The notes below the pieces were generated by a model. It had not been told where the DNA came from and did no database searches. It saw only the letters and a program-made list of their open reading frames with translations. A stretch of DNA of 24,927 nt. It comes from a virus. Location of the stretch: IMG/VR virus record IMGVR_UViG_3300042881_002872, positions 1 through 24,927 of that record; one strand, given 5' to 3'. Of the stretch, positions 123 through 20,783 are shown piece after piece. A program made the translations under genes and the position numbers. Position 1 is the first letter of the stretch. Every line of letters begins with the position of its first letter.

Positions 123-376
123 CTCCAATTCAGGGTGATATTGTCGCAGTCCTTGCCACGATTATTGGCGCGTGCGTTTTCTTAGTGCGAACCGTGGTGA
201 TGATGCTCAAAGATAGCCAGAAGATTTTTACCAAGACTATTGAAACGCTTTCAGGCTCGGTAGATCGGAACTCGCAAAGCGTGGAAGAACTCGCGCACGA
301 AGTGAAGGAATTGCGAACCGACGTGGGAGAACTTAAGGCAAGCCGAATCGCAAAGAGCCCGTCGCATTCTCGCTAG
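119..376 (+). CDS. Holin-like membrane protein, one TM segment plus coiled coil
   Basis: This is an 85-residue protein. Residues about 8-30 form one hydrophobic span (IVAVLATIIGACVFLVRTVV). The rest is polar and helical, with heptad-like VEELAHEVKELRTDV around 55-70 and a basic tail. The ATG overlaps the endolysin TGA (ATGA), so the two are probably translationally coupled. Size, one membrane span and position next to the endolysin suggest a holin or holin-associated lysis protein in the inner membrane. The single N-terminal TM followed by a cytoplasmic coiled coil is the reverse of XhlA, so no family is assigned. The stop codon TAG (374-376) is part of the first copy of the repeated TAGGTGTTTAG element. 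Confidence 0.6.
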   Translation: MTPIQGDIVAVLATIIGACVFLVRTVVMMLKDSQKIFTKTIETLSGSVDRNSQSVEELAHEVKELRTDVGELKASRIAKSPSHSR

Positions 377-384
377 GTGTTTAG
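374..384 (+). promoter_or_regulatory. TAGGTGTTTAG element, copy 1
   Basis: TAGGTGTTTAG is followed by 7 nt and the ATG at 392. Its first three bases are the stop codon of the holin-like gene. It is one of six identical GGTGTTTAG elements placed 6-7 nt before a start codon. It is a candidate phage late promoter for leaderless mRNA or a translation-initiation element. It opens the packaging block. Confidence 0.6.
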
Positions 385-391
385 AGCGGTG

Positions 392-637
392 ATGTTCAAC
401 TTTTCTCAACTGATCGCCACAGCCCGGCTTGCACTTTCCACAGTCCCGGCACAGGCACACGCTTTTGTAGAGCGTGCGCTTACGATTCCAAAGAGCCAAC
501 GGGACAAGCTATATTCCGCGTCTGGCCTTGATGCCGCTGACCGAGAAGAGGCTGATGTGCTTTACCGCAAGGTTGCAGACGCGGCTTCTGATTGGGTCGT
601 CTTCGTTGCCAGCAAAGGCACGATCGACGCTGACTAG
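392..637 (+). CDS. Hypothetical protein, first gene of packaging block
   Basis: This is an 81-residue protein from ATG 392 (MFNFSQLIATARLALSTVPAQ...). A GTG at 377 is in the same frame but lies inside the repeated TAGGTGTTTAG element, so the ATG is preferred by analogy with the other five copies. The N-terminal 30 residues are moderately hydrophobic and could form an amphipathic or membrane-associated helix (LIATARLALSTVPAQAHAFV). The C-terminal half is mixed and acidic, with VYR-like and WVVFVAS segments. I do not recognise a family. It lies between lysis and packaging genes, so a lysis accessory or packaging-associated role is possible but unsupported. Confidence 0.55.
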   Translation: MFNFSQLIATARLALSTVPAQAHAFVERALTIPKSQRDKLYSASGLDAADREEADVLYRKVADAASDWVVFVASKGTIDAD

Positions 638-730
638 ACTTTCACGAATACCTGGGAATAGAGTCGGAAGAGAATTCCGAACACGGTTTTATGTAATTTC
701 ACCGGTCTTGAACACCCTTCCTCCTATTTT

Positions 731-2041
731 ATGAGTGAACCAAACTTCCCGCCCTACAAAAAAGAAAAGCTATCCCGCTTGACGGGTTACGCGGCAAATA
801 GCCGAACGCACTCCACCGAGCAGATCAAGCAGATCGCGGATTCTATTACCGAGTTTGGCTTTACGAACCCGATCCTGGTTGACGAGAACGGCATGATCAT
901 TGCTGGCCACGGGCGACTTGCGGCGGCTCAACTGCTTGGCATAAATGAAGTTCCGACGATTACGCTGGCAGGGCTTACGGAAGCGCAGAAAAGGGCTTAT
1001 GTGATCGCAGACAATAAGCTGGCTCTGAACGCTGGCTGGGACTTAGGGCTTTTGAAATCGGAACTCGGCGCGTTAAAGTCTGACGACTTTGATCTATCCC
1101 TCACTGGCTTTAGCAGCCTTGAATTAGCAGACCTCTTTGCGGAAAAAACAACCGGGCTTACTGATCCTGATGAATTGCCTGAAGCGGATGAAGATTCAGT
1201 TTCTGTCATTGGAGACGTATGGGTCTTGGGTGCGCACAGGATCGCTTGCGGGGACTGCACGGACGCACTGGTGGTGGATTCAGTGCTTGCAGGCGTTAAA
1301 CCGCATTTGATGGTAACTGATCCTCCTTACGGCGTGAAGTATGAAGCAGACTGGCGAACCAAGGCCGGATTGCAGGATGCAGGGGCGCACGGAAAAGTTT
1401 TAAATGATGACAGGGCTGATTGGAGAGAGGCGTGGGCATTATTCCCGGGAAACGTTGCTTACATTTGGCATGGTGCGCTACACGCTCAAACTGTGTCCGA
1501 ATCTCTTGCCTCTGTTAAGTTTAAAGTTCGCGCTCAAATTATCTGGGTTAAAACGCGATTTGCAATAGGGAGGGGTAATTACCACTGGCAACATGAGCCG
1601 TCTTTTTACGCAACCAAAGAAGGTGATCTGGATGATGGGTGGAGATTCGTAGATGATCATGAATCAGCGGCTTATGTAGTGAAGGATGGTAAAACCGCTA
1701 ATTGGGAAGGTGGGAGAAAGCAAAGCACAGTGTGGTTTATAGAACACATCAAGTCAGAAACTGGGCATAGCACCCAGAAGCCTGTAGAATGCATGGCTCG
1801 CCCTATTCGCAATAATTCCAGTCCTGGGCAGGCGGTTTATGAGCCATTTAGCGGATCTGGAACAACCATCATTGCTTGCGAAATGGAAGGAAGGGCTTGC
1901 TATGCCGTTGAATTAAACCCGCCTTATGTTGATATGGCCATAAAGCGTTGGCAAAACTTTACAGGGAAGCAGGCGGTCAGGGAATCGGACGGCGTTACCT
2001 TTGATGAGGCATTAAAAGATCATGGCAAATCCTCCGCATGA
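731..2041 (+). CDS. ParB-domain / DNA N6- or N4-methyltransferase fusion
   Basis: This is a 436-residue two-domain protein. Residues about 8-105 are a ParB/Srx-like nuclease-type domain (NSRTHSTEQIKQIADSI, then IIAGHGRLAAAQ and IADNKLAL). The C-terminal part is an S-adenosylmethionine-dependent amino-methyltransferase, with the catalytic DPPY at 197-200 and the SAM-binding FSGSGTT at 373-379. Motif IV before motif I is the beta-class order, so the target base is adenine N6 or cytosine N4. The fusion is common beside phage terminase genes, where it probably modifies phage DNA against restriction. There is no SD before ATG 731; the sequence just upstream is CCTCCTATTTT. The 3' end overlaps the small terminase by 20 nt. 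The 93-bp gap before it shows no convincing promoter. Confidence 0.9.
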   Translation: MSEPNFPPYKKEKLSRLTGYAANSRTHSTEQIKQIADSITEFGFTNPILVDENGMIIAGHGRLAAAQLLGINEVPTITLAGLTEAQKRAYVIADNKLALNAGWDLGLLKSELGALKSDDFDLSLTGFSSLELADLFAEKTTGLTDPDELPEADEDSVSVIGDVWVLGAHRIACGDCTDALVVDSVLAGVKPHLMVTDPPYGVKYEADWRTKAGLQDAGAHGKVLNDDRADWREAWALFPGNVAYIWHGALHAQTVSESLASVKFKVRAQIIWVKTRFAIGRGNYHWQHEPSFYATKEGDLDDGWRFVDDHESAAYVVKDGKTANWEGGRKQSTVWFIEHIKSETGHSTQKPVECMARPIRNNSSPGQAVYEPFSGSGTTIIACEMEGRACYAVELNPPYVDMAIKRWQNFTGKQAVRESDGVTFDEALKDHGKSSA

Positions 2042-2414
2042 ACCAACCGACGCGCAAATTGCCACCGTTCGCGCTATGTCTGCATACGGTATCCCGCAGG
2101 ATGACATCGCGAAGGTTATTGGCATTGATCCAAAGACGCTCCGCAAGCATTACAGCGAGCAGTTAGAGAAGGGATCAATCGAAGCCACTGCAAAGGTTGC
2201 AGAATTCCTATTTCGCCAAGCCACAACGAACAACGTGGCGGCGGCTATGTTTTGGATGAAGTGCCGTGCAGGTTGGTCGGAGAAGACTCGCGTTGAAGTA
2301 TCGCAACGACACGAGGACTTAGACCTGACCAAGCTTTCTTCCGATGATTTGGCACAAATGGAGGCACTTCATGCGAAAGCCAGTATCCCTAGCTCAAATT
2401 CAAGCGGAAATTAG
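2022..2414 (+). CDS. terS: Terminase small subunit (DNA-recognition)
   Basis: This is a 130-residue protein directly before the large terminase. Residues about 8-45 look like a helix-turn-helix (TDAQIATVRAMSAYG, then DIAKVIGIDPKTLRKHY), as in many small terminases that bind the packaging site. A central helical region (GSIEATAKVAEFLFRQ) probably drives oligomerisation. The following AAAMFWMKCRAGWSE matches the W-K-x-R-x-G-W pattern common to this family. The start at 2022 overlaps the methyltransferase end and the 3' end overlaps the terL start, consistent with one transcript. The assignment rests on motif pattern and position. Confidence 0.8.
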   Translation: MANPPHEPTDAQIATVRAMSAYGIPQDDIAKVIGIDPKTLRKHYSEQLEKGSIEATAKVAEFLFRQATTNNVAAAMFWMKCRAGWSEKTRVEVSQRHEDLDLTKLSSDDLAQMEALHAKASIPSSNSSGN

Positions 2415-3720
2415 GCGGCGCGATCTAAGCCGCTTCCTTCCTCACGCGATGCCTAACCTGCGCTGGGACTGGCCGCATACCAAGCTCATCATCGATCATC
2501 TCCAGGCGTTAGCTGATGGTGAGATTGAGAACCTGATGATCTCCTGCCCTCCGCAGCATGGCAAGACTCAGGTCGCATCCATCGGGTTTGGTGCGTTTCT
2601 GCTTAACCAGCGCAAAGAAACCCGCGTGGGGATTGCGTCCTACTCGGAAACGCCTAGCCTCCGCATCTCGCGCTCGATTCGGCGCATCATGGAAGGCGTT
2701 GGGGCTGAGTTTACTGGCGACCTTAAGAGCGTTCAGGAATGGGAACTGGACGACGGTTCTAAGGTTCGCGCGACTGGTGTCGGTGGTGCGTTTACGTCGT
2801 TTCCGGTAGACATTGGTATTTTGGATGACCCGATCAAAGACCGCGACCAGGCGGAGAGCCTCAATGCCAGGGAATCGCTCTGGGAATGGTACACGGACGT
2901 TTGGGTAGCTCGGAACATGGCGCACCAGGTACTCATCGGCACGGAGTGGCACCAAGACGGGCTGCACGGACGCATCCGCAACGCTCCGGGTAACCAACGA
3001 TGGACATTGCTGAACCTTCCTGCTATCGCGCTGGAAAACGATATTCTTGGTCGCGCTCCTGGTGAGGCGTTATGCCCAGACCGAGTGACATTGGAGCAAT
3101 TAGAAGAACGCAAGCTCCAGAATCCTTATTCATTTGAGGCGATGTACCAGGGCAACCCAAGCCCACGGGAAGGAACGCTGTTCAAGGTCGGTTCGCTAGT
3201 CTACTGCAACCATGACGAAGTGCCAATCAATCTACCAAAGGTAAGACGTTGGGACTTGGCAAGCTCACCGGAAGGGGACTATACCGTCGGCCTCTTGATC
3301 GAAGGGCCGTGCCGAGATGGGCGGTTCTATGTGACCGATGTAGTGCGCGGTCGATGGAACGTATTCGAGCGTGACCAGGTGATTCTGCAAACCGTGAGCA
3401 GGGATGGAAGGGTGGTAAGGCAGGTATTTCCAAACGATCCCGGTTCTGCTGGTGATGCTCAAATCAACGCGATGAAACGGATGCTCGCTGGCTATCCGGT
3501 TTATGACGAACGGGAAACGGGTAGCAAAGAGGTTCGGGCTGAACCCGTCGCGTCTCAGATCGCGGGTGAGAATATCGTCATTGCTCGAGCGCATTGGAAT
3601 ACCGAATTCGTTGAAGAGCTGCGGACGTTTCCGCGTGGTCGCCATGATGACCAGGTTGATACGCTCGCTGGTGGGTTCAACTACTTGGCAGCCAAAAAAC
3701 GCATTTCGGTAGCGGTGTAG
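2371..3720 (+). CDS. terL: Terminase large subunit (packaging ATPase/nuclease)
   Basis: This is the 449-residue motor that pumps DNA into the prohead and cuts concatemers. The start is set at ATG 2371 because GGAGG lies 6 nt upstream; an ATG at 2344 in the same frame has no such site. The N-terminal ATPase has Walker A CPPQHGKT (about 59-66) and Walker B VDIGILDD (about 146-153). The C-terminal RNase H-like nuclease starts at RRWDLAS (Asp about 294) with Asp about 303, and ends with RHDDQVDTLAGGF near the C-terminus. Order and length fit the Terminase_6 family. It overlaps terS by 44 nt. Its stop TAG (3718-3720) is the start of element copy 2. Confidence 0.94.
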   Translation: MRKPVSLAQIQAEIRRRDLSRFLPHAMPNLRWDWPHTKLIIDHLQALADGEIENLMISCPPQHGKTQVASIGFGAFLLNQRKETRVGIASYSETPSLRISRSIRRIMEGVGAEFTGDLKSVQEWELDDGSKVRATGVGGAFTSFPVDIGILDDPIKDRDQAESLNARESLWEWYTDVWVARNMAHQVLIGTEWHQDGLHGRIRNAPGNQRWTLLNLPAIALENDILGRAPGEALCPDRVTLEQLEERKLQNPYSFEAMYQGNPSPREGTLFKVGSLVYCNHDEVPINLPKVRRWDLASSPEGDYTVGLLIEGPCRDGRFYVTDVVRGRWNVFERDQVILQTVSRDGRVVRQVFPNDPGSAGDAQINAMKRMLAGYPVYDERETGSKEVRAEPVASQIAGENIVIARAHWNTEFVEELRTFPRGRHDDQVDTLAGGFNYLAAKKRISVAV

Positions 3721-3728
3721 GTGTTTAG
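3718..3728 (+). promoter_or_regulatory. TAGGTGTTTAG element, copy 2
   Basis: TAGGTGTTTAG, then 7 nt, then the portal ATG at 3736. The first TAG is the terL stop codon. It marks the start of the portal/MuF block. No SD lies between the element and the ATG. Confidence 0.6.
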
Positions 3729-3735
3729 CCTAGTT

Positions 3736-4983
3736 ATGAATCTATCCCAGCGGGTTAAGCAGTTCTTCCTGTCTACTGCGCCACGCTCTAGCGTCGGTAT
3801 GCTTCAGGTTCCTGTTTTGCGCTCGCTCGACCCGCAGAAGGAGCCATTGCACCTTAATTCCGTGGTGATGTCGCTGATTAACTGGGCATGGGTTCAGTCT
3901 TCGGCGGCTCCACTTGCGGTGTTCAAGAAGGATGATGCGACCGACCAGGACGAGATTGTAAAACTTCCGTTGGTGCTTGAGGCAATCACCGCTCCGGTGC
4001 AAGGTATCTCCAGCCGCAACGCAATGTTCGGGATGTGGATGTCCCTCATCACCGAAGGCACGGCATTTTTCTACCCTGTGCGCGATGCTAGGAACCGCGT
4101 GGTAGGGCTTCAGTACCTGTACCATTATTACTGCACGTTCCAGGGTGGCAAGGTTCAGTATGTAGCACCAAGCGGCGAAACGACGTACTTTGACGAGCAG
4201 GATTTAATCATTCTGCGTTATGGTATTGATCCTGAAGATTCCAGACGCGGATACTCACCACTCAAGGCCTGCCTTCGCGAGGTGCTGACCGACCAGGAGG
4301 CAAGCGAGTATCTCCGCGCTGTGCTTTCAAACTTCGGTGTCGTTGGCTCCATCATTTCCAGCGATGATGAGTCCGCAAACTTTGACGAGGATGCGGTCAA
4401 GGCGATTACTGCGGCTTGGAAGAGTGCAACGACCGGAAGCAACCGGGGCAAAACGCTGGTATCAAGCACGAAGCTCAAGATTCAGGAGATCAGATCCAAT
4501 CCAAAGGACATGATCCTGGAAAAGGTTCGCAACATCCCAGAGCAACGAATCTGTGCGGCGTTTGGCGTTCCTCCTGCGGTGTTGCAGCTCGCATCGGGTC
4601 AGGAAACAAGCACATATAACAATTTGACCCAGATGATCCGGCTTGCTTGGAACCAGTTCCTCATTCCGGTGACTGACATTATCGCAAGTCAATTTACTGA
4701 CCAGTTTTTACGTATTTTTACTGACGATTCTGCGCTCTATTTGGGCTATGATAGGCGTGGTGTTGAGGCGTTACAAATTGACCGTGCAGAATTGGAAGCC
4801 AGGTACACGCTTTTGTACCAGGGTGGGATTGTGATGCTGAACGAAGCTCGGACTGCGCTCGACTTTGAACCTGCTCCTGTGGACGGGTTTTACCAGGATT
4901 TGAGTTCTGCGGCCAGTCTGACTCTTGCAAAGGCTCGGTTCGCTGAAAGTCTGGCAAAGAAGCAAGGGCGATCTGATGTGTGA
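3736..4983 (+). CDS. Portal protein (HK97-type)
   Basis: This is a 415-residue portal, the dodecameric ring at the packaging vertex. Family-typical stretches include NSVVMSLINWAWVQSSAAPLAVF near the N-terminus, DLIILRYGIDPEDSRRGYSPLKAC in the middle, and NIPEQRICAAFGVPPAVL followed by TYNNLTQMIRLAWNQFLIP. This is the pattern of the HK97 portal superfamily (Phage_portal). ATG 3736 is chosen; the in-frame GTG at 3721 lies within the repeated element. Position immediately after terL and before a MuF-like gene agrees. The 3' end overlaps the next gene by 8 nt from its ATG at 4976. Confidence 0.92.
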   Translation: MNLSQRVKQFFLSTAPRSSVGMLQVPVLRSLDPQKEPLHLNSVVMSLINWAWVQSSAAPLAVFKKDDATDQDEIVKLPLVLEAITAPVQGISSRNAMFGMWMSLITEGTAFFYPVRDARNRVVGLQYLYHYYCTFQGGKVQYVAPSGETTYFDEQDLIILRYGIDPEDSRRGYSPLKACLREVLTDQEASEYLRAVLSNFGVVGSIISSDDESANFDEDAVKAITAAWKSATTGSNRGKTLVSSTKLKIQEIRSNPKDMILEKVRNIPEQRICAAFGVPPAVLQLASGQETSTYNNLTQMIRLAWNQFLIPVTDIIASQFTDQFLRIFTDDSALYLGYDRRGVEALQIDRAELEARYTLLYQGGIVMLNEARTALDFEPAPVDGFYQDLSSAASLTLAKARFAESLAKKQGRSDV

Positions 4984-5695
4984 GATTCGGATGGACGGTG
5001 GATTGCCTCCTGACCAGGCGGTGCTTATAACCACGCTTGGGCATAGACCGCGCTCCAAGGCGTACCGTGACAATGTAGACAAGGCATTACCCAGCGGCTT
5101 TGATGTTGAGGAGACCTTGACCCAGATTTACCGGGCATTAAAGGGCGATCTTATGGGGCTTGTTGAGCAGGTTAAGTCTGGCGCGATTGATCCTCAGCAG
5201 TTCGCGGACGATGCGTACCTTTTGATCGAAGATGCTCACTCTAAGGCTTGGTTTATTGGTCGGAAGCGTTCGGGGATGACCGATGCCTTCAACTCAGCCG
5301 ATCAGCAAGCGGGGCGGGTCGCGGCTGACTTTGATTCCTTTTTCATTGCGAATTGGCGCGATGATTTCGTGTCCGGTCGCTATTTTGACGGGGAAGAATG
5401 GGCTGATGGATTGCTCAAGGAACGAGCGCGGGCTTATGGTACGCGGGTTCGCGGGACTGCCAACGAGGCATTTGTGCTTGGGACTGAAGAGCAGGGGCTT
5501 GACGTTGAATTCACTTGGGATCGCTCTGCGCTGGAATCGTGCCAGGACTGCATAGAGTACGAATCCCTGAACCCGTGGCTCCCTGGTGAGCTTCCTTCTT
5601 TTCCAGGCGATTGCTCCACGGATTGCCGGCACAACTGCCAGTGCCGCATCGTGCGCTCGGACGGCAAGCTCGGTTTCGATCCATTTGACGACTAG
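4976..5695 (+). CDS. Mu F-like minor head protein (head morphogenesis)
   Basis: This is a 239-residue protein from ATG 4976, which overlaps the portal stop by 8 nt. A TTG at 4925 would give 256 residues but would need a 59-nt overlap. The C-terminal part carries the Mu F signature: ESCQDCIEY, then a Pro/Gly stretch, then CSTDCRHNCQC with closely spaced Cys and His likely to bind metal. Proteins of this family sit in the prohead near the portal and are needed for head assembly or are ejected. The stop TAG overlaps the TAG of the opposite-strand gene (CTAG at 5692-5695), so the + block ends exactly where the minus-strand cassette ends. Confidence 0.82.
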   Translation: MCEIRMDGGLPPDQAVLITTLGHRPRSKAYRDNVDKALPSGFDVEETLTQIYRALKGDLMGLVEQVKSGAIDPQQFADDAYLLIEDAHSKAWFIGRKRSGMTDAFNSADQQAGRVAADFDSFFIANWRDDFVSGRYFDGEEWADGLLKERARAYGTRVRGTANEAFVLGTEEQGLDVEFTWDRSALESCQDCIEYESLNPWLPGELPSFPGDCSTDCRHNCQCRIVRSDGKLGFDPFDD

Positions 5696-5880
5696 GTTTT
5701 CTTTTTTCGACCTCTTTTCCACTCTGTTTTGCGCTCGTAGACAAAATCTTCGGGGATGATCCAGGCTTTGATTGGCCCAAAATCGTGAAGAGTTGCGCCT
5801 GGGATTCGACCCTCTTTACAGAGGGTATTTATTCTTCTTCGGCTAATTCCCCACTTTACGGCGGCTTCGGCGGTGGTCAA
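5692..5880 (-). CDS. Small helix-turn-helix DNA-binding protein (MerR/excisionase-like)
   Basis: This is a 62-residue protein read leftward from TTG 5880. The N-terminus TTAEAAVKWGISRRRINTLC is a winged-helix/MerR-type recognition unit, followed by EGRIPGA and IKAWIIPEDF, the usual wing and W-x-I-P end of the helix_turn_helix_17 type. The C-terminus is strongly basic (ERKTEWKRGRKKKT). The TTG overlaps the TGA of the preceding gene (TTGA), so it is translated by coupling as the last gene of the four-gene cassette. A transcriptional regulator or excisionase-like architectural protein is likely; autoregulation of the cassette is an inference. Starting lower would cut the HTH, which supports TTG. 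Confidence 0.78.
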   Translation of the reverse strand: MTTAEAAVKWGISRRRINTLCKEGRIPGATLHDFGPIKAWIIPEDFVYERKTEWKRGRKKKT

Positions 5881-6245
5881 GCGTGGTCACCAGTGATGTT
5901 CAAAAGCGATGCGGTTCCGGTTCCATGATCCACAGAAAGTTGCATTGATCCAGCGATGGCGGCGTGAAGTCCTGGGAACAGTTCTTCAAACTCAGCAGGT
6001 GTTGCGTCGCCGTCAAAATCTGAGTCATGGAAAACCCCGTCTATGTCTTGATAACCGATCCAAGTTTCGGATTCAAAATCAAACTTGAGGTTTTTGTTTA
6101 CATACTGAAAATCGACAGGCTTGCCGTTTTCAAATTTGAGTTCGACCAACCCCGCTCCACGGTAACGGGAATCGGTTGGTTCGATGTTTGCGACATATGC
6201 GATGCTGGGGTGAAATTGCCCAGTATTTTTTGTGAAGTGGATCAT
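5877..6245 (-). CDS. Hypothetical acidic protein, third gene of minus-strand cassette
   Basis: This is a 122-residue protein from ATG 6245, preceded on its strand by GGGGAGG 5 nt upstream, the best SD in the cassette. A TTG at 6263 in frame lies before that SD and is rejected. The protein is acidic, with segments such as DGVFHDSDFDGD and PAEFEELFPGL and a small beta-rich N-terminus (GLVELKFENGKPVDFQYV). I see no TM segment, signal peptide or family. It overlaps the genes on both sides by 4 nt (ATGA and TTGA). In this setting (small, acidic, own operon, HTH gene downstream) a host-takeover or anti-defence role is possible but not shown. Confidence 0.72.
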   Translation of the reverse strand: MIHFTKNTGQFHPSIAYVANIEPTDSRYRGAGLVELKFENGKPVDFQYVNKNLKFDFESETWIGYQDIDGVFHDSDFDGDATPAEFEELFPGLHAAIAGSMQLSVDHGTGTASLLNITGDHA

Positions 6246-6460
6246 AGAACCTCCCCAAACCAAACTTCAAGAGCAGCTTTGCACTCTGCGCCGCTTCCTG
6301 TCGCAACCACGCTGTAAGTTTTTTGCCCGCGTGGCTTTACTTCGGCGCGGCGGTTGCCCTTTGCCGCGCCTTTTATGCGCCCAAACCCCTTTGATCCTTC
6401 CCACTTCTGGAAAAAAAGTTTCCGTCCGTCATTGTCGAGTTTAATTTTCATGGTTGTCAT
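6242..6460 (-). CDS. Hypothetical basic protein, second gene of minus-strand cassette
   Basis: This is a 72-residue protein from ATG 6460; a second in-frame ATG at 6451 is also possible. It is basic in the first two thirds (FFQKWEGSKGFGRIKGAAKGNRRAEVKPRG) and ends in an amphipathic helix (AECKAALEVWFGEVL). The Gly/Lys/Arg-rich middle could bind nucleic acid, but no family is recognised. Its TGA overlaps the ATG of the next gene (ATGA), so the two are coupled. A weak GGGA lies upstream of the ATG. Confidence 0.65.
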   Translation of the reverse strand: MTTMKIKLDNDGRKLFFQKWEGSKGFGRIKGAAKGNRRAEVKPRGQKTYSVVATGSGAECKAALEVWFGEVL

Positions 6461-6480
6461 TGTGATTTCCCTGCTTGGTT

Positions 6481-6780
6481 TTAGATTGAGTTCCAGACTT
6501 GGTCAAAAGTGACGTTTTCGCCAAATGTTTCAAGGATGAAATCGGCGGCTAAGTTGAATGCTTCATTGTCTTTCGTTCGGCGAGTTGAAACTGAGCTTGT
6601 GTTTGGCTGGACTCTAAGCGCGTCACTGTTTTTGTAGAAGCCAGGAAGACGACTGGATTCGAGGTATCCGGTTCCGGTTGTGTAATAGATTTTCTCACGA
6701 GTGGTTCCGTTGACGTAGATTCGTCGTTCGCCGTTTCGTGTTGTGAAGGTTCCGAGCTTAATTGTGGATGTGCTTTGCAT
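6481..6780 (-). CDS. Hypothetical protein, first gene of minus-strand cassette
   Basis: This is a 99-residue protein from ATG 6780, with AAGG about 9 nt upstream and a sigma70-like promoter 39 nt away. The N-terminal half looks like beta strands (TIKLGTFTTRNGERRIYVNG, YYTTGTGYLES); the C-terminal half is helical (NEAFNLAADFILETFGENVTFDQVW). There is no TM segment and no recognised family. It leads a four-gene leftward operon inserted between the MuF-like and protease genes, on the opposite strand from all neighbouring structural genes. Confidence 0.68.
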   Translation of the reverse strand: MQSTSTIKLGTFTTRNGERRIYVNGTTREKIYYTTGTGYLESSRLPGFYKNSDALRVQPNTSSVSTRRTKDNEAFNLAADFILETFGENVTFDQVWNSI

Positions 6781-6818
6781 TTTGTTTTACCTTGTGTGTC
6801 CCTTGCGGTTACGTTATT

Positions 6819-6846
6819 ATTATACCATGCCTGGAACAATAAACAA
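6819..6846 (-). promoter_or_regulatory. Sigma70-type promoter of the minus-strand cassette
   Basis: On the minus strand TTGTTT (6846-6841) is separated by 16 nt from a perfect TATAAT (6824-6819), about 39 nt before the ATG at 6780. It is the only textbook -35/-10 pair I found in the window, so the cassette can be read from the prophage by host RNA polymerase, independently of late transcription. The leader contains two CAAGG direct repeats. Confidence 0.7.
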
Positions 6847-6885
6847 GGGGAATTAGGATTTTTTTTGAAAAAAGTTATTGCCCCC

Positions 6886-6896
6886 TAGGTGTTTAG
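6886..6896 (+). promoter_or_regulatory. TAGGTGTTTAG element, copy 3
   Basis: TAGGTGTTTAG, 7 nt, then ATG 6904 of the protease gene. Here no upstream gene ends in the element, yet the leading TAG is kept. This shows that TAG is part of the element and not only a stop codon. The upstream 40 bases are AT-rich (TTTTTTTTGAAAAAAG). Confidence 0.6.
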
Positions 6897-6903
6897 TCTA
6901 GAC

Positions 6904-7659: not shown

Positions 7660-7663
7660 CGCT

Positions 7664-8971: not shown

Positions 8972-8980
8972 GGAAAAACA

Positions 8981-9430: not shown

Positions 9431-9454
9431 TTGCGGCAATAGCAGGATCAAAAG

Positions 9455-9489
9455 CACCTCCCTAGCGATAGGGGGGTGTTTAGTTTTAT
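9455..9489 (+). terminator. Intrinsic terminator of the protease-capsid unit
   Basis: CACCTCCCTA (9455-9464) pairs with TAGGGGGGTG (9469-9478) in a 10-bp stem with one G-T wobble. It is closed by a GCGA tetraloop (GNRA type) and followed by TTTAGTTTTAT. It lies 25 nt after the stop of the decoration-like gene. The 3' arm and the U-rich tail contain element copy 4. Confidence 0.75.
9475..9483 (+). promoter_or_regulatory. GGTGTTTAG element, copy 4 (inside terminator)
   Basis: GGTGTTTAG, 6 nt, then ATG 9490. This copy lacks the leading TA (it is preceded by GGGG). It overlaps the 3' arm of the terminator hairpin, so stop and restart signals are fused in about 35 bases. Confidence 0.6.
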
Positions 9490-10911: not shown

Positions 10912-11431
10912 GAAGCACCTTTCTTCTGCTTCGCTTTTCCAGGCTCATATCAAGGCGTTTGCCAAGATGAACGGGACTCACCGGGAGCTTGTTTTAAAGA
11001 GCGTTCAGCAGGCACGGCGCGACTTGCACAAGGAGATGAGCGGTTCAGTTAAGACGGATGCACTCCGTAAGATGGGTCACCCATACGGGCGCGGTGGATC
11101 GGCTGGAAGTGCAGGGCGCGGGCAGAGGGGGGATAGACGCGGACGCGCGAGTTTGGCGCCTAACCCGATCAACTGGCAGAGCGGAACGCTTAGACGTTCG
11201 ATCTACCTCACGGAACGGACTCCGGGTAATTGGTATCTGGGATCTTCGGCTCCTTATGCCAAGTACCAGCTTTCGCCGGATGGAACAAAGGGCAAAAACG
11301 GCAAAGGCGGCATGATTCGGCGCGGTGTGTTTGGTGGTCGCAAGATGGGCGGTTCTTTGGGACGAATTGAGCGGTATTGGCGGGCTAGGAACCGTGGGAT
11401 TCGTGAGGCTTTGAAGCGTCAAGGGTTCTAG
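10904..11431 (+). CDS. HK97 gp10-like neck / tail-completion protein
   Basis: This is a 175-residue, very basic protein (many Arg/Lys/Gly) with a GTG start at 10904 inside the previous gene; AGAGGG lies just upstream. A helical N-terminus (ELVLKSVQQARRDLHKEM) is followed by VKTDALRKMGHPYGR, a Gly/Arg-rich loop, then NPINWQSGTLRRSIYL and APYAKYQLSPDGTKG. The S-G-x-L-R-x-S-I and APYAxYQ patterns are those of HK97-gp10 family proteins. The C-terminus GRIERYWRARNRGIREALKRQ is an amphipathic helix. Its TAG stop (11429-11431) is the start of element copy 5. Confidence 0.72.
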   Translation: MARKHLSSASLFQAHIKAFAKMNGTHRELVLKSVQQARRDLHKEMSGSVKTDALRKMGHPYGRGGSAGSAGRGQRGDRRGRASLAPNPINWQSGTLRRSIYLTERTPGNWYLGSSAPYAKYQLSPDGTKGKNGKGGMIRRGVFGGRKMGGSLGRIERYWRARNRGIREALKRQGF

Positions 11432-11439
11432 GTGTTTAG
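11429..11439 (+). promoter_or_regulatory. TAGGTGTTTAG element, copy 5
   Basis: TAGGTGTTTAG, 6 nt, then ATG 11446 of the tail tube gene. The leading TAG is the stop codon of the gp10-like gene. It separates the connector block from the tail block. Confidence 0.6.
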
Positions 11440-12276: not shown

Positions 12277-12277
12277 C

Positions 12278-13016: not shown

Positions 13017-14389
13017 GCGTTACAGATGTACTAGAAACCCAGTTTAAGCTTGATGCCTCGCAGTACAAGCGTGAGGCGGGCATGGTGACGTCATTCAACG
13101 ATACGCTGGGGCGCGATTTTAACAAGCTGAACGGCGTGATGGATGCGATGCGGCTTGCTGGTGTTGCGGCTGGGGTCGCTTTGGCTGGCATTGGGATTGC
13201 GGCGGCTGGAGCTTTTGCGGCGTTTAGGCAGTACGCGGCTTTTGAGTCCTTGGAGAATGGGCTGGTTGCGGTTGAAGGGAACGCAAAGAAAGCAAAACAG
13301 GCACTGGAAGATTTGAAGCGAATTGCTCGTCAGCCGGGGATTGGCTACGAAGAAGCAGTGCGTGGATATGCGGGGCTTCGGCGCGGTGGTGCGGATGCTG
13401 ATTTCTCCCAACGTGCGGTTGCGGCGGCTGGGAACGCGAACGCTTTTGCTGGCGGGAATATTGAGAGTTTCCAGCGCATGATGCTCGCGTTTGGGCAGAT
13501 CCTCAACAAACCATTCCTCCAAGGTGAGGAATTGATGCAACTTAACGAGGCTGGTATCCCAGCTTCTCGAATCATCCGTGAAAAATTTGGGACTGCTGAT
13601 GGTGCTGAGTTAAAGAAACTAGGCGTGACGTCTGGCATGGCGCTTGAGGCACTTGTTGAGGCGATGGAGAAGATGCCGGCCGCAGCCGGCGGTGCGCAGA
13701 ATCTTCTCGACAACATCGCAGGCGCGCTTAAGTTTGCGATGGCTGGATTTGGCGCTGGGCTTGCTTCCGGGGTTGGGAACCCGCTAAACTCGGTGCTTAA
13801 AACCCTAGACCAACTGAACTCCAACAAATACTTTGAGTCGCTCGGTGCAAACATCGGGCGCATCTTTGAGGCCGTTGCTGGTGGTGAGGGTGAGGGGCTG
13901 ATGAAGTTTGCCAATACGCTGGAGGTTCTTTCGATGGCGATTGCTGATGCGATGCCGGATATTATGTTCTGGCTCAAGGCTCTTTTGCTCACACTCGGGC
14001 CCGTCGGCATTGTTGCTCTTGAAAAACTTAAGGCACTGGAAGGAGATAGGTCTCTTGCAAAGGCTCAGCAAGAAAACGCTGATAATTTCCAGGCTATCAG
14101 GGAAGCACAGGATAAAGCCAAGGCAGAGACTGAAAAGCAAAAGACTGAGGATCAAAACTCTGCACAAGACCCTGCGACTCAGTTCCTACGCAAGATTGAA
14201 AAGAACACCGCCCAGGCTTTAGAGATTCAGAAGGCGGCTTTTGGTGGTGGTGAGCTTGCACGGATTGGGGTCACTGCCACGGAGATTCGCGGGAAGTCTA
14301 ACCGTGAGAAACTCGCTCACCAGATCGGCGTGGTTGGGCTTGATATGGCGTTTCCGGTGATGAGGCAAACGCGAAGGCTAGGCACTTAA
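13013..14389 (+). CDS. Tape measure protein (short)
   Basis: This is a 458-residue protein, AGGAG 4 nt before ATG 13013. The N-terminal region contains a hydrophobic GVAAGVALAGIGIAAAGAFAAF segment (about 49-70). It is followed by the tape-measure domain pattern: FESLENGLVAVEGNAKKAKQ, LKRIARQPGIGYEEAVRGYAGL, LAFGQILNKPFLQGEELMQLNEAGIP. A second hydrophobic stretch MFWLKALLLTLGPVGIVAL lies about 320-338 and a Lys/Gln/Glu-rich coil near 350-390. It sets tail length and enters the host membrane on DNA ejection. At about 0.15 nm per residue it predicts a tail near 70 nm. Its position after the frameshifted chaperone is diagnostic. Confidence 0.88.
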   Translation: MSVTDVLETQFKLDASQYKREAGMVTSFNDTLGRDFNKLNGVMDAMRLAGVAAGVALAGIGIAAAGAFAAFRQYAAFESLENGLVAVEGNAKKAKQALEDLKRIARQPGIGYEEAVRGYAGLRRGGADADFSQRAVAAAGNANAFAGGNIESFQRMMLAFGQILNKPFLQGEELMQLNEAGIPASRIIREKFGTADGAELKKLGVTSGMALEALVEAMEKMPAAAGGAQNLLDNIAGALKFAMAGFGAGLASGVGNPLNSVLKTLDQLNSNKYFESLGANIGRIFEAVAGGEGEGLMKFANTLEVLSMAIADAMPDIMFWLKALLLTLGPVGIVALEKLKALEGDRSLAKAQQENADNFQAIREAQDKAKAETEKQKTEDQNSAQDPATQFLRKIEKNTAQALEIQKAAFGGGELARIGVTATEIRGKSNREKLAHQIGVVGLDMAFPVMRQTRRLGT

Positions 14390-16785
14390 TGGCTTTTGAT
14401 GATCCTTTCGTTATTGAGGTAGACCACGAACAAGGGCGCATTGTGAAGCCTCTGAACGCTGTTCTCTGCCAAGGCTCCAGCGATGGGGTGGGGCGGGATA
14501 AAACGCTGGGATGGTCGCTCAGTAAGGGATCAGACGTATTCATTGAGGTCGCTAAGTACACCGCTTTCCTGGCTCCATACCAAGGGTCACCTACATGGGC
14601 GAAAACGACCACCGGGAACTATGTTCGCAGGCGAAAGACTGACTTTGCTTTTGGGGATAGCACGAAGTGGAGCGAAGCGGAGACTAAGGTTGCTGGGGAT
14701 TGGTATCTCAACGGCTCGAACCTCCCGGCAAATGAGACGATGATCACCACCGCGACGTTCGGAAAGAATCGCGGGTTCTATGTTTCCTACCTTGTCCCTA
14801 GCACGGGAACGGAAGACTTCGAAGTGATTCAGGTCGGCTGGAATTCCACTGCTACGCTTGCAGGTGGGGTTGGGCTTTCGATTAGCTCGACTGGGAATGT
14901 TCTGATTTACCGGGATGGGGTTTACCGGGGTCAGGCGAGCATCAGCGGATTTACGGCGGGGAATCAGACCGGGCAACGGTGGGTATCGCTCCTGCTGATT
15001 CCTGGTCGCAAGTCGGAGCTGATCGTAGTTCCTGACCAGGGGACGGGTTTCACCTTTGATTTTGAGGAACTGAACACGGTTACATCGCCGGAGATTACGC
15101 CTCCAAGTACGAAGTTCTGGGCAAAGTTTCCGAGTACGGCGGCTGGGCGTTCGGTGAGTATCCAGATTGCGCCGATCACCTATCCAACCTCGGGTGTTCT
15201 GGCTGGTGTTGATGCGTGGTTCTCTGAGCCTCCGGATTCGGGCGATACCTTGCTTTCTCCTGACATTTTCTGGGATGAGGCCTATGCCGGGACGACTGGG
15301 GTTACGGCTTCGCTTCGTGAGACGACGGCTTTTGGTACGGTGTTTGCGCCAAACGGGACGAAGATTTCAGCCACTCCGCGCTTTGATTTGACCGGGGACG
15401 GGAATTATACGCCATTTATTTATGGTGGGGTCTTTGGCTACCGTGAGGAGCGGGGGCTGACCGATGATGCGGAGATTGCGGACATTACCAACGCTCTGAC
15501 TCAGCGCAGCATCTCGGTGGGCGAAACTCCGGACGCTACCAAGATGATGGTCAGCACGGTTGGGCTTGATCCTGTAGCCACGGCTGGGATGGTGGATCCG
15601 CTTGGGCACATGTGCAGACCGATCCGGGCTAAGATGGGCGGTCAGACGCTCTTTGATGGGGTGACAATGCCTCCCTCTGTTGCTGGTGCGCCAAGTGAGG
15701 CTGGGTATGAGCTTAATTTTGAATGTTTGAGCCGCTGGCATTTGGGCGATAAAGCACAGTTCCGCGCTCCTTATGCGCTCGACGGGTTTACTTTCGTTAA
15801 TTCCATTAGCTTCTTGCTACGCCAGGCGGGCGTACCGGATGCGCTGATGAACATTGAGAATCCAAGTATTACGCTCGACTCTGGCAAGACTGCCTCGCTC
15901 GGTGAATGGTCGCTGCTTATTCGTCCTGGCGATACGGTGAATGAGTGGATCGCTAAGGTGTTTGAGGGCTATGCCGGGAACTGGTTTTATAACTGGGTTC
16001 CAAAGTCTACGGGGGGCATGGAGTTCAAGGTGCTTTCACCGACGGGCATGGGTTCCACTCCTGTCCTTACTTTGTGGGGAACGGTTGCTCAGGCGGTTGC
16101 TCAGTTGGTATCGGAAGGGCTTTCTGCTGGGGATGCGGCTAAGTTTTACGCGCATAGGCTCTGGCAAGACTTCCAAGAGGAGCAGTTGCCACCGGAGGCC
16201 AACGAGGTTCGGGTCATTGGTCGCAATCCTAAAAACAATCAGCCGATTGCGGCTTTTAAGGTGGATTATGCGGCGGCTGATCCTACGACTCTTCCGAGTT
16301 TGCGGCCTTCTAACTGGGTCGGGTATCGCTCGGTTGCGGCGATTGTGAATCCTGGGATCACTTCGCAGACGAGCGTGAACCGTGCGGTCAATTTGCTCTT
16401 TGATCGGCTTACTCCTAAGCGTCGCCTTGTGAAGTTTGGTTCCCCGGTTTGGATTAAGCTGACGGCTTCCGGGCAGTACCTTTACCCACCGATGTCGGTG
16501 ACGCTGAAGAACATCTATGACGGTGTAGACGCTGAGGTGCGGATTACGGGGATTGAGAGCGATCTAGACTGCTATGACGCTTGGCCTTATTTCTCGACTC
16601 CAACGCAGTACATGGGCGAAATTATCAGCGGGACGACTCCCTGGCGCGGGTCGCTTAGGACGGCAAACTTTGACGTAGCGGTGCGAATTGCGATGGACAG
16701 GTTGCAATCCAACATTCCGTACCCTGTGGCGATTGGTGGTCAGCTTATCAGCGGCAAGCCTGGGACGTTTGGGGTGGAGCAATGA
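14389..16785 (+). CDS. Minor tail protein (distal tail / baseplate hub-like)
   Basis: This is a 798-residue protein directly after the tape measure (TAATG overlap). Residues about 100-220 look like a lectin-type beta sandwich (FGKNRGFYVSYLVPSTGTEDFEV; GLSISSTGNVLIYRDGVYRGQ; WVSLLLIPGRKSEL). The region about 420-560 has PIRAKMGGQTLFDGVTMPP, FVNSISFLLRQAGVP and RPGDTVNEWIAKVFEGYAGNWF, resembling the hub domains that read coordinates into the tail tip. The C-terminus is strand-rich. I do not have a firm family; the place after the tape measure is where distal tail and hub proteins are encoded. High use of GGG and GCG codons continues into the next large tail gene. Confidence 0.65.
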   Translation: MAFDDPFVIEVDHEQGRIVKPLNAVLCQGSSDGVGRDKTLGWSLSKGSDVFIEVAKYTAFLAPYQGSPTWAKTTTGNYVRRRKTDFAFGDSTKWSEAETKVAGDWYLNGSNLPANETMITTATFGKNRGFYVSYLVPSTGTEDFEVIQVGWNSTATLAGGVGLSISSTGNVLIYRDGVYRGQASISGFTAGNQTGQRWVSLLLIPGRKSELIVVPDQGTGFTFDFEELNTVTSPEITPPSTKFWAKFPSTAAGRSVSIQIAPITYPTSGVLAGVDAWFSEPPDSGDTLLSPDIFWDEAYAGTTGVTASLRETTAFGTVFAPNGTKISATPRFDLTGDGNYTPFIYGGVFGYREERGLTDDAEIADITNALTQRSISVGETPDATKMMVSTVGLDPVATAGMVDPLGHMCRPIRAKMGGQTLFDGVTMPPSVAGAPSEAGYELNFECLSRWHLGDKAQFRAPYALDGFTFVNSISFLLRQAGVPDALMNIENPSITLDSGKTASLGEWSLLIRPGDTVNEWIAKVFEGYAGNWFYNWVPKSTGGMEFKVLSPTGMGSTPVLTLWGTVAQAVAQLVSEGLSAGDAAKFYAHRLWQDFQEEQLPPEANEVRVIGRNPKNNQPIAAFKVDYAAADPTTLPSLRPSNWVGYRSVAAIVNPGITSQTSVNRAVNLLFDRLTPKRRLVKFGSPVWIKLTASGQYLYPPMSVTLKNIYDGVDAEVRITGIESDLDCYDAWPYFSTPTQYMGEIISGTTPWRGSLRTANFDVAVRIAMDRLQSNIPYPVAIGGQLISGKPGTFGVEQ

Positions 16786-16970
16786 TCACCGTACAAATCA
16801 ACATTGGCGGGGATGGTGAGCAGGTGGAAATACCTGTGACGGTTTCGGGCTGTTCGTGCCGCGCTGAGGATTTCGTTATGGCACTTGTTGGGTTTGCGAA
16901 CGACTGGAAGGCTGGGGCTGATGCTTTGGTAGAGCCTGAACGCAAGCCGTGCGGGTGTAAGGATGCCTAA
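16782..16970 (+). CDS. Small CxC...CxC protein between tail genes
   Basis: This is a 62-residue protein. ATG 16782 overlaps the TGA of the upstream gene (ATGA) and its 3' end overlaps the next gene by 8 nt. Cysteines occur as two pairs, CSC at 24-26 and CGC at 57-59, separated by a helical stretch (AEDFVMALVGFANDWKAGADAL). Four thiols in two CxC pairs could bind one metal ion or form a disulfide-locked hairpin. The first 20 residues are beta strands (ITVQINIGG, QVEIPVTV). It probably acts in the tail tip with the two proteins it is coupled to; no family recognised. Confidence 0.65.
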   Translation: MITVQINIGGDGEQVEIPVTVSGCSCRAEDFVMALVGFANDWKAGADALVEPERKPCGCKDA

Positions 16971-19900
16971 TAACGGGCTGATCGTCGCGTGGGATAAGCT
17001 GGAATATCGCCTGGCTGGGTCGGCTACGGCTACGGGTGCAGGTGGGACTTTATCCTATGGGTACGCGGGGTCTGGGTACACACGGTGGGCGCCGGATACT
17101 GTCAACTCTCCGACGGGGATTGAGCTTTATGTGGAGTCCGATTGGAACGGAACTTCTGGCACTTGGGAGGTGACTTACCGCGGTCCAAACGAGCCTTCTG
17201 GTGGTTACACGGTTAGTGGTTCGGGCTACCAAGCAACGTCCATCGTTGCACGGTTTATCAACCTCAAAATCTATTCCAAACTGACGGGCGCGCTCTACCG
17301 GGTGATGTGGGATTCTATCGAAATCTACGTTAATGGCTCGCTTTCTACCACGCTTGGAAGTGGGGACGAGACGAGCAACGGTGTTGGTCCTTGCTACCTC
17401 AACTATATTGGCGTACCGTTTCAGATTCAAGGATCGGCGACGGGTGGGGTGGATACGAGTTGGGCTTATGATCCTTGCGATCCATCGGACGTGGCAAGTG
17501 GGAACTGGAATTATAACGTTCCGGCTGTGATTGAGGGGGGATGGAGGTTTGAGGATGATGGCGGCACTACGTGGAACGCTTTGCCTGTTTATGTGGACGT
17601 TCGGACTGTGGCGGGTACTGGGTGTCCTTTTGGTTTGACGGCTACCGGGATTGTGTCGGCGGCTGATACCTACTCTGGCACGGTGAATGTGACGGCAAAG
17701 GGGAGCCAGGTCTTAGAGTACATCGGCCGCACAATGGGCGTGGGGTACACGCGGGTGGAATGCGAGGACGGGTTTGGCAACGTGATTGCTACGGCTGATC
17801 TGCTGATGGTGGAGCCATGCCTGGATTTGTGCGATTCCTCGGCGACTGATCCGTACCGCGATTACTACCGAACGACGCTCACGAATGAGCCGGCTGATGG
17901 TTCCATTATGCTTCTTCCGAACCTTGAAAAAGATATTTTCAAGCTAGGAAATAGCGATTACAAGTCTTTGATCTACCGGAACGATTTCCCCGTGGTGAGA
18001 GGCTCGGCGTCTAGGACTTGCACGATTGATTCGGTCACCACGTCTGCCAGTTCCACTCCGCAGATTTACCCTGGTTCGGCGGCCTTCCTAGGCGGGGTTG
18101 GGCTTGGAACGCATCCAATGGAGGACTTTTTGGCACTGGATACGGTGGCTCCGGTGACGATCAACAAGTCTAAGACTGAGCTTAAGAGTATTTCTTTCTA
18201 TGGCAATACCGTCTGCTCGACTTATGCGCCATCGAATCCATTGGTGGTTGCGGTCTGCCCGTCGGCTCCTATTCGTATTATCAGCCCTATTGAGGTATTC
18301 CCGACTGCTCCAACGGGGTCAAATAAGGAGGAGGCGATTGGCTGGACTTCCATTAACTTTGTGGATACTATGGCTAACTACCAAAGCCACGCGAGTATGA
18401 TCTTGCGCTATGTTGGATCGTGGGGCAATCCGCTTTGGCACTACTTCCATTTTAAGGATGACTTTTCAAGTTTGGTTTTCGCGGACTATTGGGGGCCTGG
18501 GCGCCAACAATGGCTGGGGAATTCCTCGCTGCCGACGGCTGAAAAGACGGATACGCGCACGGACATTCTCGGCTCTTGCTTCGATGATTCGGGGCATACG
18601 GTCTTCATGGACACTGCCACAACGCATCGCTGGCTCGGCACTTCCAGGCAACGGCTCTATTCTCCGACTATTCCCGCGTCATGTCAGACGGGAGAAACTG
18701 CGGTCTGGAACTTCGGGGAATACGACGAGGACACGGAAACTTGGGACGGGACGGGAACGGTTGGGGCGACTACGGTCACGGTTGGCACGACAACGACGAA
18801 GGCAACACTTGATGCGCTGAGCTTTACGGCTTACCCTTATATGTACCCTTTGATCTGCGACCGGATCGAGATACCAGCAACTGGGTTTACGAACGTTGCT
18901 TCATTCTCCGTGAAACTGATCGGCATAGACGGCTCGGAAGTGGAGCTTTGCACGGCTAGTGGTACGCACGTCATTCCGAAGGGCGCGAACGTGAAGTATG
19001 CCGGGTCTTGGGGTATTGAGAACTCTCCTGACCCTGGCGTCACTCCTGATCTGGGTGTGGATGCAACGGGGAGCGGAATTTCTACCACGGTTATGGGTGA
19101 CCCTTTGCACTGCCCGGCGTTTTCGCTCTTACCTGCTCGGTCGTATTATAGGCTGAGATACGACATTGTAAAGACGAATGCCGCGCTTACTGCCACGGTT
19201 CCGAACCCGATCTTTAAGCGAAATGCCACGACGCCTAAGATGTACTGGGAGTCGGGGCATATTCAGACTTTGCTTTGGCCGAACGGATCTGCTCTTAGGC
19301 TTGGGAACTGGACTTTCTACGACATTAGCCTTGGGCTGATAAATCCTCCGGTGGTGCTTGGAAACGCTAAGACGACGATCATTGATGCGCTTTGTTCTAT
19401 CAGGCTGATCTTTGAGGCGAGGGCGCACAATGACGGCTTGACTACCGAGCTTACGACTCTCTTTGATACCTACGAAGGGCAATCCGTGGGGGTGGTGGAT
19501 AAGTTTTCGTGCGCTTGGATCAACCCTGCTGAGGGTGATCATTCCACGGTGTCGAGCTATCAGTGGAGCCTGGTGAATACGATGGCTGAGTCGCCACCGC
19601 TGATGTGCTTTCCGAACAAGTCTTTTGTGGTTGCTTCGGCCAGCTGGGCGCAGACGGGCGCTTACAAGCACCAGGCGATTGATTGGAGCCAGGAAGCACG
19701 GCACTTGATCCACCCATCGAACCGCATGGATCAGGAGACGGCTACCGGGCCTGGTTTGATTACATCACCAACGACGGCTCCGCTTGGCTGGGCGATCACG
19801 ACTCACCAGGTAGCTGTGGACAATACCGAGACGGCTACCTGGGACATTAACATCGGGGCGACCAAGTACGCGGATGCTACGCCCTGGCGGGGATGGTTTG

Positions 19901-20466
19901 GGATTCTTGATATTCTGGAGAGCGATGGGGTCGCCTACGCGGTCGGGCTGAACTTGCGCCACGCGGTCGCTTATGTTCAGGGCGGGACGGCGTGGCTCGG
20001 GATTGCGGATCACGCGAACCTTTCGAGTATCGCTTTTACTGATACGGGGATTGCAGCTGAAACGGTTTTCCTAGAGTGGGTGAATGGTGGGGCGAATGAG
20101 CTTAATTTGTACGTGTCCGATGCGGGGTCTTGCGAGCGGCACAGGACGAATAACGAGGGTGTTTCATTTACTATGACAACGATTGGAAACGGTTCACAAG
20201 TGGCGGCGGTTTGCGCTCCTGACAACCTGGAATATACCTACCGGGTAGACGGCGGGGCGATCCTTGGCAAGATTTACGATGCGATGGGGAACGTGATTGA
20301 TACGTTCACGGCGGTTGCTTCTGGTGTGGATGACGCGCAGATCGGGGTGGATTGCCAGTACAACGTGCCTGGTGGGGTTCCTGGCGGGCTTCGGTTCACT
20401 TTGTACTACATGGTGAGCGGATCGGTGACGAGCAAGTCGAGCCAAGATGGGCGCGTCTTCGCTTAG
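16963..20466 (+). CDS. Large tail tip / fibre protein, unknown family (1167 aa)
   Basis: This is the longest gene of the window. It is Gly/Thr/Ser/Trp-rich with a beta-strand look throughout, consistent with an extracellular tail protein. The first 150 residues are Gly/Ser/Thr-rich (GYAGSGYTRWAP, PTGIELYVESDWNGTSGTWE). Cys residues recur (for example DPCDPSD, CLDLCDSS, ICDRIEI), suggesting disulfides or metal sites. Near 990-1160 it looks like a jelly-roll lectin fold (WDINIGATKYADATPWRGWFG; YTYRVDGGAILGKIYDAMGN). ATG 16963 overlaps the previous gene. Its stop TAG (20464-20466) begins element copy 6. Receptor binding or tail-tip structure is inferred from size, composition and position; no catalytic motif was seen. 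Confidence 0.65.
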   Translation: MPNNGLIVAWDKLEYRLAGSATATGAGGTLSYGYAGSGYTRWAPDTVNSPTGIELYVESDWNGTSGTWEVTYRGPNEPSGGYTVSGSGYQATSIVARFINLKIYSKLTGALYRVMWDSIEIYVNGSLSTTLGSGDETSNGVGPCYLNYIGVPFQIQGSATGGVDTSWAYDPCDPSDVASGNWNYNVPAVIEGGWRFEDDGGTTWNALPVYVDVRTVAGTGCPFGLTATGIVSAADTYSGTVNVTAKGSQVLEYIGRTMGVGYTRVECEDGFGNVIATADLLMVEPCLDLCDSSATDPYRDYYRTTLTNEPADGSIMLLPNLEKDIFKLGNSDYKSLIYRNDFPVVRGSASRTCTIDSVTTSASSTPQIYPGSAAFLGGVGLGTHPMEDFLALDTVAPVTINKSKTELKSISFYGNTVCSTYAPSNPLVVAVCPSAPIRIISPIEVFPTAPTGSNKEEAIGWTSINFVDTMANYQSHASMILRYVGSWGNPLWHYFHFKDDFSSLVFADYWGPGRQQWLGNSSLPTAEKTDTRTDILGSCFDDSGHTVFMDTATTHRWLGTSRQRLYSPTIPASCQTGETAVWNFGEYDEDTETWDGTGTVGATTVTVGTTTTKATLDALSFTAYPYMYPLICDRIEIPATGFTNVASFSVKLIGIDGSEVELCTASGTHVIPKGANVKYAGSWGIENSPDPGVTPDLGVDATGSGISTTVMGDPLHCPAFSLLPARSYYRLRYDIVKTNAALTATVPNPIFKRNATTPKMYWESGHIQTLLWPNGSALRLGNWTFYDISLGLINPPVVLGNAKTTIIDALCSIRLIFEARAHNDGLTTELTTLFDTYEGQSVGVVDKFSCAWINPAEGDHSTVSSYQWSLVNTMAESPPLMCFPNKSFVVASASWAQTGAYKHQAIDWSQEARHLIHPSNRMDQETATGPGLITSPTTAPLGWAITTHQVAVDNTETATWDINIGATKYADATPWRGWFGILDILESDGVAYAVGLNLRHAVAYVQGGTAWLGIADHANLSSIAFTDTGIAAETVFLEWVNGGANELNLYVSDAGSCERHRTNNEGVSFTMTTIGNGSQVAAVCAPDNLEYTYRVDGGAILGKIYDAMGNVIDTFTAVASGVDDAQIGVDCQYNVPGGVPGGLRFTLYYMVSGSVTSKSSQDGRVFA

Positions 20467-20474
20467 GTGTTTAG
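20464..20474 (+). promoter_or_regulatory. TAGGTGTTTAG element, copy 6
   Basis: TAGGTGTTTAG, 6 nt, then ATG 20481. The leading TAG is the stop codon of the 1167-residue tail gene. It opens the receptor/sugar-processing block. The start codon context ATGAGC also follows copies 3 and 5. Confidence 0.6.
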
Positions 20475-20480
20475 AATGGC

Positions 20481-20783
20481 ATGAGCGTTCCTCAGATACT
20501 AACTTCCGGGCCTTATGTGGTCACTGCAACGGCTACAAACGCGGCTTTGGCAACTGCGCCGTGCCGTTTAACCTATCTGCGGATAAACGCAACGGCGGCG
20601 GGAACCGTAATTCTTTACGATAATACGGCGGCATCTGGCTCAACACCTCTTCAAACAATCCGAGCAGAACTAGGCACAACCGTTGTGCCTTTACCGGCAA
20701 ATGGAATTCTGCTAAAAAACGGACTTTTTGCTACTTTTACAACATTTACAGGCACCGTTGATGCGGGGCTGGTGAGAAACTAA
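20481..20783 (+). CDS. Small tail-associated protein (hypothetical)
   Basis: This is a 100-residue protein, Ala/Thr-rich and probably all-beta (PYVVTATATNAALATAP, LTYLRINATAAGTVILYDN, TFTTFTGTVDAGLVRN). There is one Cys and no signal peptide. Small proteins of this look (a strand pair, GTVxLYDN-type turn, final GTVDxGLVRN) are frequent near tail fibre genes of phages and may cap or decorate the tail tip. It starts 6 nt after element copy 6 and ends one base before the deacetylase ATG, so both are one unit. Family unnamed. Confidence 0.6.
   Translation: MSVPQILTSGPYVVTATATNAALATAPCRLTYLRINATAAGTVILYDNTAASGSTPLQTIRAELGTTVVPLPANGILLKNGLFATFTTFTGTVDAGLVRN

Follow-up and report, generated by a model that had tools for sequence, protein, structure and literature searches.

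The window analysed here, meaning the whole stretch of 24,927 bases, is an IMG/VR virus record from a lake phage, in which PHROG matches identify terminase, portal, protease, capsid, head–tail adaptor, and tape measure genes. Near relatives from IMG/VR, labelled g1–g6 (G001–G006) and g7 (L399) and oriented as the window, include the contigs G003 (35.4 kb) and G002 (33.1 kb), and g1 overlaps the window with 99.95% identity. The relatives carry an integrase-like gene beside an attP-like 3′ half of tRNA-Leu(TAA), together with a CI-like repressor, and the group is, as judged from its gene content, one of temperate siphophages. An apparent ORF at the right end of the window (VPRAGLEPARPCEQRILSP...) is this same tRNA-Leu(TAA) 3′ half, which adjoins the integrase-like gene in relatives and is a probable attP site. 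The attP-like sequence is absent from 392 Planctomycetota genomes, records of plasmids and phages match it only in part, and no close prophage was found in GTDB. A second DNA methyltransferase gene (phrog_363) lies close to the right end, and the terminase unit includes a gene for a fusion of a ParB-like nuclease domain with a DNA methyltransferase, which is lacking at this place in g3 (Table 1).

Six of the late units in the window are headed by the same word. GGTGTTTAG occurs exactly six times by exact search, always on the plus strand, at distances of 7, 7, 7, 6, 6, and 6 nt from an ATG; the first-pass annotation had described six such sites, and every coordinate, orientation, and spacing was reproduced. 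The word extends to TAGGTGTTTAG in five of the six copies, which confirms the leading TAG that had been claimed for five sites. This TAG is missing from the copy at 9475 and, in relatives, from the copy before the lysis genes; the conserved core is the 9-mer. Dinucleotide shuffles gave a mean of 0.05 exact copies and a maximum of 2 in 300, and no other 9-mer in a scan of the window occurred more than twice at 6–7 nt before an ATG, so that the earlier claim of a repeat beyond chance holds. When two mismatches were allowed, 62 matches were found versus 56 expected, which indicates that GGTGTTTAG is a sharp word and not family-like.

The first-pass annotation had also stated that no copy lies inside a gene or on the minus strand. 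The restriction to the plus strand stands, whereas a purely intergenic location does not, because four of the six copies overlap the gene before them, which uses the leading TAG as its stop codon (Table 1). In relatives, the lysis copy, GGT GTT TAG, supplies the final two sense codons of the gene upstream and its stop. The copy at 20466 is followed, 1 nt past the element, by an additional out-of-frame ATG that is lacking in the relative L399. Immediately before TAGGTGTTTAG at copy 3 (in g2, g3, L006, L007, and L399), the sequence TAGGTTTTTA(T/C)CC has the look of a degenerate tandem element.

Table 1. Copies of the element and neighbouring features, with positions in the window.
Feature	Position	Strand	Leading TAG as upstream stop	Context
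Copy 1	376–384 (TAGGTGTTTAG 374–384)	+	374–376	7 nt to ATG 392; heads unit of small gene, MTase, terS, terL
Copy 2	3720–3728	+	3718–3720 (terL stop)	7 nt to portal ATG 3736
Copy 3	6888–6896	+		7 nt to ATG 6904, head protease/major capsid unit
Copy 4	9475–9483	+		6 nt to ATG 9490, head–tail adaptor unit
Copy 5	11431–11439	+	11429–11431	6 nt to ATG 11446, 276-aa gene (probable tail tube, judged by position), first in tail unit
Copy 6	20466–20474	+	20464–20466	6 nt to ATG 20481; heads last late unit (100-aa, 477-aa, and metallophosphoesterase genes)
ParB-like nuclease domain/DNA methyltransferase fusion	731–2041			In terminase unit
Minus-strand cassette, 1.2 kb	5701–6883	-		Excisionase-like gene and small orphans, between minor head gene and copy 3; probable moron
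Terminator-like hairpins in cassette	5809–5826; 6344–6370	+		
Strong terminator-like hairpin	9452–9481	+		-22 kcal/mol, z -3.8; 3′ arm overlaps copy 4; conserved in relatives
Second DNA methyltransferase	23990–24718	-		phrog_363
tRNA-Leu(TAA) 3′ half	24715–24927	-		Probable attP site

The 35.4 and 33.1 kb relatives each have seven copies of GGTGTTTAG, the seventh of which precedes the endolysin gene, just beyond the window. These seven copies head the lysis, terminase, portal, protease/capsid, adaptor, tail, and last tail/fibre cassettes, and no copy is present in the early or lysogeny regions of the relatives. The motif search in related genomes that had been proposed as a check returned 57 exact copies in 14 related contigs, and all 57 stand 6–7 nt before an ATG. 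This set was gathered by exact match, so that degenerate copies are uncounted, and in three fibre-gene copies with a first ATG at 1 nt it is the in-frame ATG at 6 nt that was counted. The letters of the spacer vary, and the spacing flips between 6 and 7 nt at one and the same locus; the copy 5 spacer is 7 nt in g4 and 6 nt in the window. Genes are exchanged around the element: at copy 1, the upstream genes of the relatives differ right up to the element, as far as the TAG, and L399 (83% capsid identity) has copies at the expected loci with different genes downstream, copy 6 being retained despite a different downstream start.

Two of the copies lie where transcription from upstream would be expected to fail. 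The minus-strand cassette ahead of copy 3, which is missing from g2, g3, and g4, contains terminator-like hairpins on the plus strand, and the strong hairpin at copy 4 would stop a read-through mRNA, or leave it occluded, just before the adaptor ATG. Because copy 4 is embedded in a hairpin and copy 3 is located behind an antisense cassette with hairpins, each of the two units would require its own start.

A different word is found in the sister phages, which comprise L013–L015 (TerL 54% identical) and L398, a contig with the portal of the L013–L015 group. GGTGTTTAG is absent from these four contigs, and CGTACCTTA stands 6 nt, and in one case 7 nt, ahead of the portal and protease ATGs, and in L398 before the adaptor ATG as well. 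The cassettes concerned correspond to those of the window copies at 3720, 6888, and 9475. The portal proteins of L013 and L014 are 55% identical, and each is 23–26% identical to that of the window; at such low identity, the retention of CGTACCTTA is not simple sequence inertia. Replacement of GGTGTTTAG by CGTACCTTA at matching sites, the strongest of the new observations, speaks for a reader specific to each lineage and tells against simple pairing with 16S rRNA. On sequence grounds, this en-bloc replacement points to a phage-encoded reader and not to a host-wide signal, and a change of word at equivalent places would follow if the reader of the late switch were a product of each phage group itself. 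No repeated start element of this kind is present in relatives at about 43–50% TerL identity (L321–L346) or in those further away.

The early regions of g1–g6 contain one of two otherwise unrelated modules (g3, g1, and g4 versus g2, g5, and g6), and the sole rightward early gene common to both encodes p253. This orphan protein of 253 amino acids is 96–99% identical in g1–g6, and its gene immediately precedes the first element, which in g3, g1, and g4 itself provides the last codons of p253. The second gene that both modules have in common is leftward and encodes a membrane-like protein of 155 amino acids. L182 (G003) and L184 (G002) have nothing in common in their replication modules and also differ in their repressors, yet the same late region is joined to both exactly at p253. 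For the phage sigma factor or regulator that was to be looked for outside the window, p253 is a linked candidate, but homology to sigma factors was found neither by profile nor by BLAST: p253 has no sequence match in Pfam, PHROG, or PDB, its profile–profile comparison with 28 sigma factors did not rise above shuffles, and BLAST gave no similarity to gp55 or phiEco32 gp36. The sole NCBIfam match is marginal (sigma factor SigI, E = 0.022, residues 136–189). The structural model is of low confidence (pLDDT 44–55; best PDB fold match E = 0.16), and nine of the ten top PDB fold matches of its C-terminal part fall on ECF sigmas or on PhyR, a sigma-like protein, in entries that are redundant and not independent. 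By its linkage, p253 is a candidate regulator and the best candidate for the reader, and the SigI and fold matches give only a hint of a sigma identity. Among the early proteins, p91 scores best for sigma region 4, but it was rejected as the reader because one of the early-module types lacks it. With seven late cassettes headed by the word, no early copies, an en-bloc sister word, and linked p253, the earlier proposal of one dedicated late switch is well supported.

Features at the start codons bear on whether the element acts in transcription or in translation. Shine–Dalgarno (SD) pairing of the early genes has a mean of -8.0 kcal, whereas in five of the seven element genes AGGTG pairs at 9–11 nt from the ATG with about -3.7 kcal, as is also seen at random ATGs; internal late genes are likewise weak in SD, so that this contrast is valid only versus early genes. 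The copy at 9475 has an SD pairing of -10.2 kcal, but within the hairpin. Complementarity to 16S rRNA at 5–9 nt from the start was not found for the element, and CGTACCTTA, which has no SD core and is not 16S-complementary, nevertheless follows the same spacing rule. These results support the rejection of a plain SD role, which the first-pass annotation had already disfavoured. The GTG within GGTG was likewise rejected as a start codon, since it is in frame in the 7-nt copies only, and no Rfam match was obtained. Upstream of the element, no strict -35 box was found at k = 6, and an A-rich patch about 19–24 nt upstream, with AAAGA at about 23 nt, was borderline (p about 0.02–0.1) and was left out of the evidence.

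In the usual promoter geometry, a -10-type block lies 6–7 nt from the first transcribed base, and with this geometry the start of transcription would fall at the ATG. GGTGTTTAG is accordingly read, with a rough probability of 0.55, as a short -10-type late promoter that is recognized by a phage factor and starts transcription at or near the ATG, the message being leaderless or nearly so. A phage-encoded factor would direct host RNA polymerase, which the phage probably uses, to GGTGTTTAG ahead of each late cassette, and transcription would begin at, or a few bases from, the ATG located 6–7 nt downstream. The resulting late mRNAs would be leaderless or nearly leaderless, and an SD sequence would be unneeded. 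A leaderless late mRNA is geometrically apt, and the spacing and the lack of SD are only consistent with it. The reader may be p253, possibly a very diverged sigma-like factor, and in the sister phages the element and its reader would have changed together. The complete scheme is offered tentatively and is doubtful as a whole: each of seven late cassettes would be transcribed into a leaderless mRNA from a 9-bp promoter that is fused to its start codon, a sigma-like p253 would recognize this promoter, and element and reader would co-switch between sister lineages.

The layout of GGTGTTTAG would also fit a translational element, in which the word acts in the mRNA, as has been proposed for the start-associated sequences (SAS) of cluster K mycobacteriophages, and marks late starts for a phage RNA-binding protein or a modified ribosome. 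Such a start-associated signal would account for a word that occupies the ribosome-binding window at a spacing fixed to the ATG, that includes an AGGTG able to pair weakly with 16S rRNA, and that has an SAS-like layout (asymmetric, in one orientation, ATG-biased, and a few nt before the start). It is nonetheless rather unlikely, because AGGTG is far from the ATG at 9–11 nt and contributes only about -3.7 kcal, TTTAG is left without explanation, CGTACCTTA keeps the same spacing without an SD core, and a protein that occupies -7 to -15 would be expected to hinder the ribosome, not to aid it.

The remaining readings fare worse than the late promoter. That the phage merely uses a host-wide promoter or leader motif would agree with its probable reliance on host RNA polymerase, Pfam and PHROG scans of the early proteins having found no phage polymerase, but is improbable given that sister phages carry another word at the same loci and that early genes of the same phage are without the word. 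Among the matches listed, moreover, the pattern of GGTGTTTAG plus ATG spacing occurs in multiple copies in this clade only, and many unrelated viral contigs match it once each by chance, which speaks against a host-wide signal. Repressor-binding sites (stoperator-like sites or operators) that silence the late units in the lysogen were considered because cluster A stoperators, to which the immunity repressor binds, are likewise short, asymmetric, and all in one direction in a temperate phage, and the element lies at gene junctions as well. Here, however, the element does not co-vary with the repressor: that of g1 and g4 differs from that of g3, g2, g5, and g6, and the element is identical. Swapped repressors with an unchanged element largely refute this very improbable reading, which also leaves the fixed distance to the ATG unaccounted for and is at odds with confinement to late cassettes. 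Least probable of all is a recombination linker, that is, short module-boundary homology for cassette exchange, for although several exchanges have their limits at the element or close to it (the holin side of copy 1, the cassette side of copy 3, and the downstream genes of L399), the fixed ATG spacing and the sister word at matching places are unexplained and other module boundaries, as at the early module, are without the element.

Regarded as a late promoter, the element can be compared with several known systems. The T4 late promoter is a single block with the word TATAAATA, is read by the phage-encoded sigma gp55, and yields leadered mRNAs. The T4-late-type promoter suggested at first stands as a likeness in logic, that of a single-block late promoter with a phage-encoded reader (putative here), and does not extend to sequence, since a TATAAATA-like -10 block is absent and p253 has no sequence similarity to gp55. 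Phage sigma factors also read promoters with TAATGTATA in phiEco32 and TGATGT in 7-11, plus TATA in late promoters (PMC4331800). These are similarly short, -10-like blocks before late or structural genes, and the phiEco32 word has TGT.TA in common with GGTGTTTAG; theirs, however, are intergenic and, as far as the published table shows, have no fixed distance to the start codon (PMC4331800), and their sigma genes are recognizable, whereas p253 is not.

The SAS of cluster K mycobacteriophages have the sequence GGGATAGGAGCCC, which contains the SD core AGGAG; they are located in the non-structural half, prefer gaps above 50 bp, and are in half of the cases accompanied by upstream inverted repeats (PMC3203893; PMC12699233). 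Like the element, SAS are short asymmetric repeats in one orientation that occur in many copies a few nt before an ATG, sometimes include the upstream stop codon, and are specific to one phage group. The words differ (GGTGTTTAG and CGTACCTTA versus GGGATAGGAGCCC), the AGGAG core is missing, and all copies here are on lysis and structural cassettes instead of non-structural genes, mostly with zero gaps, with no SD at proper spacing, and with en-bloc replacement in the sister clade. As the defining features of each known system fail in part, the element is assigned to none; by analogy, its layout resembles that of cluster K SAS and its logic that of phiEco32, 7-11, and T4 late promoters.

Promoter/reader pairs that co-vary among closely related phage lineages would amount to a natural experiment in transcription-factor specificity. 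If the late mRNAs start at the ATG, the late switch would be coupled to ribosomes able to translate a message that has no leader. The element also bears on SAS, the mechanism of which was left open by the 2011 SAS paper, and in metagenomes it may serve as a simple marker of late cassettes and of phage regulators that are otherwise hidden.
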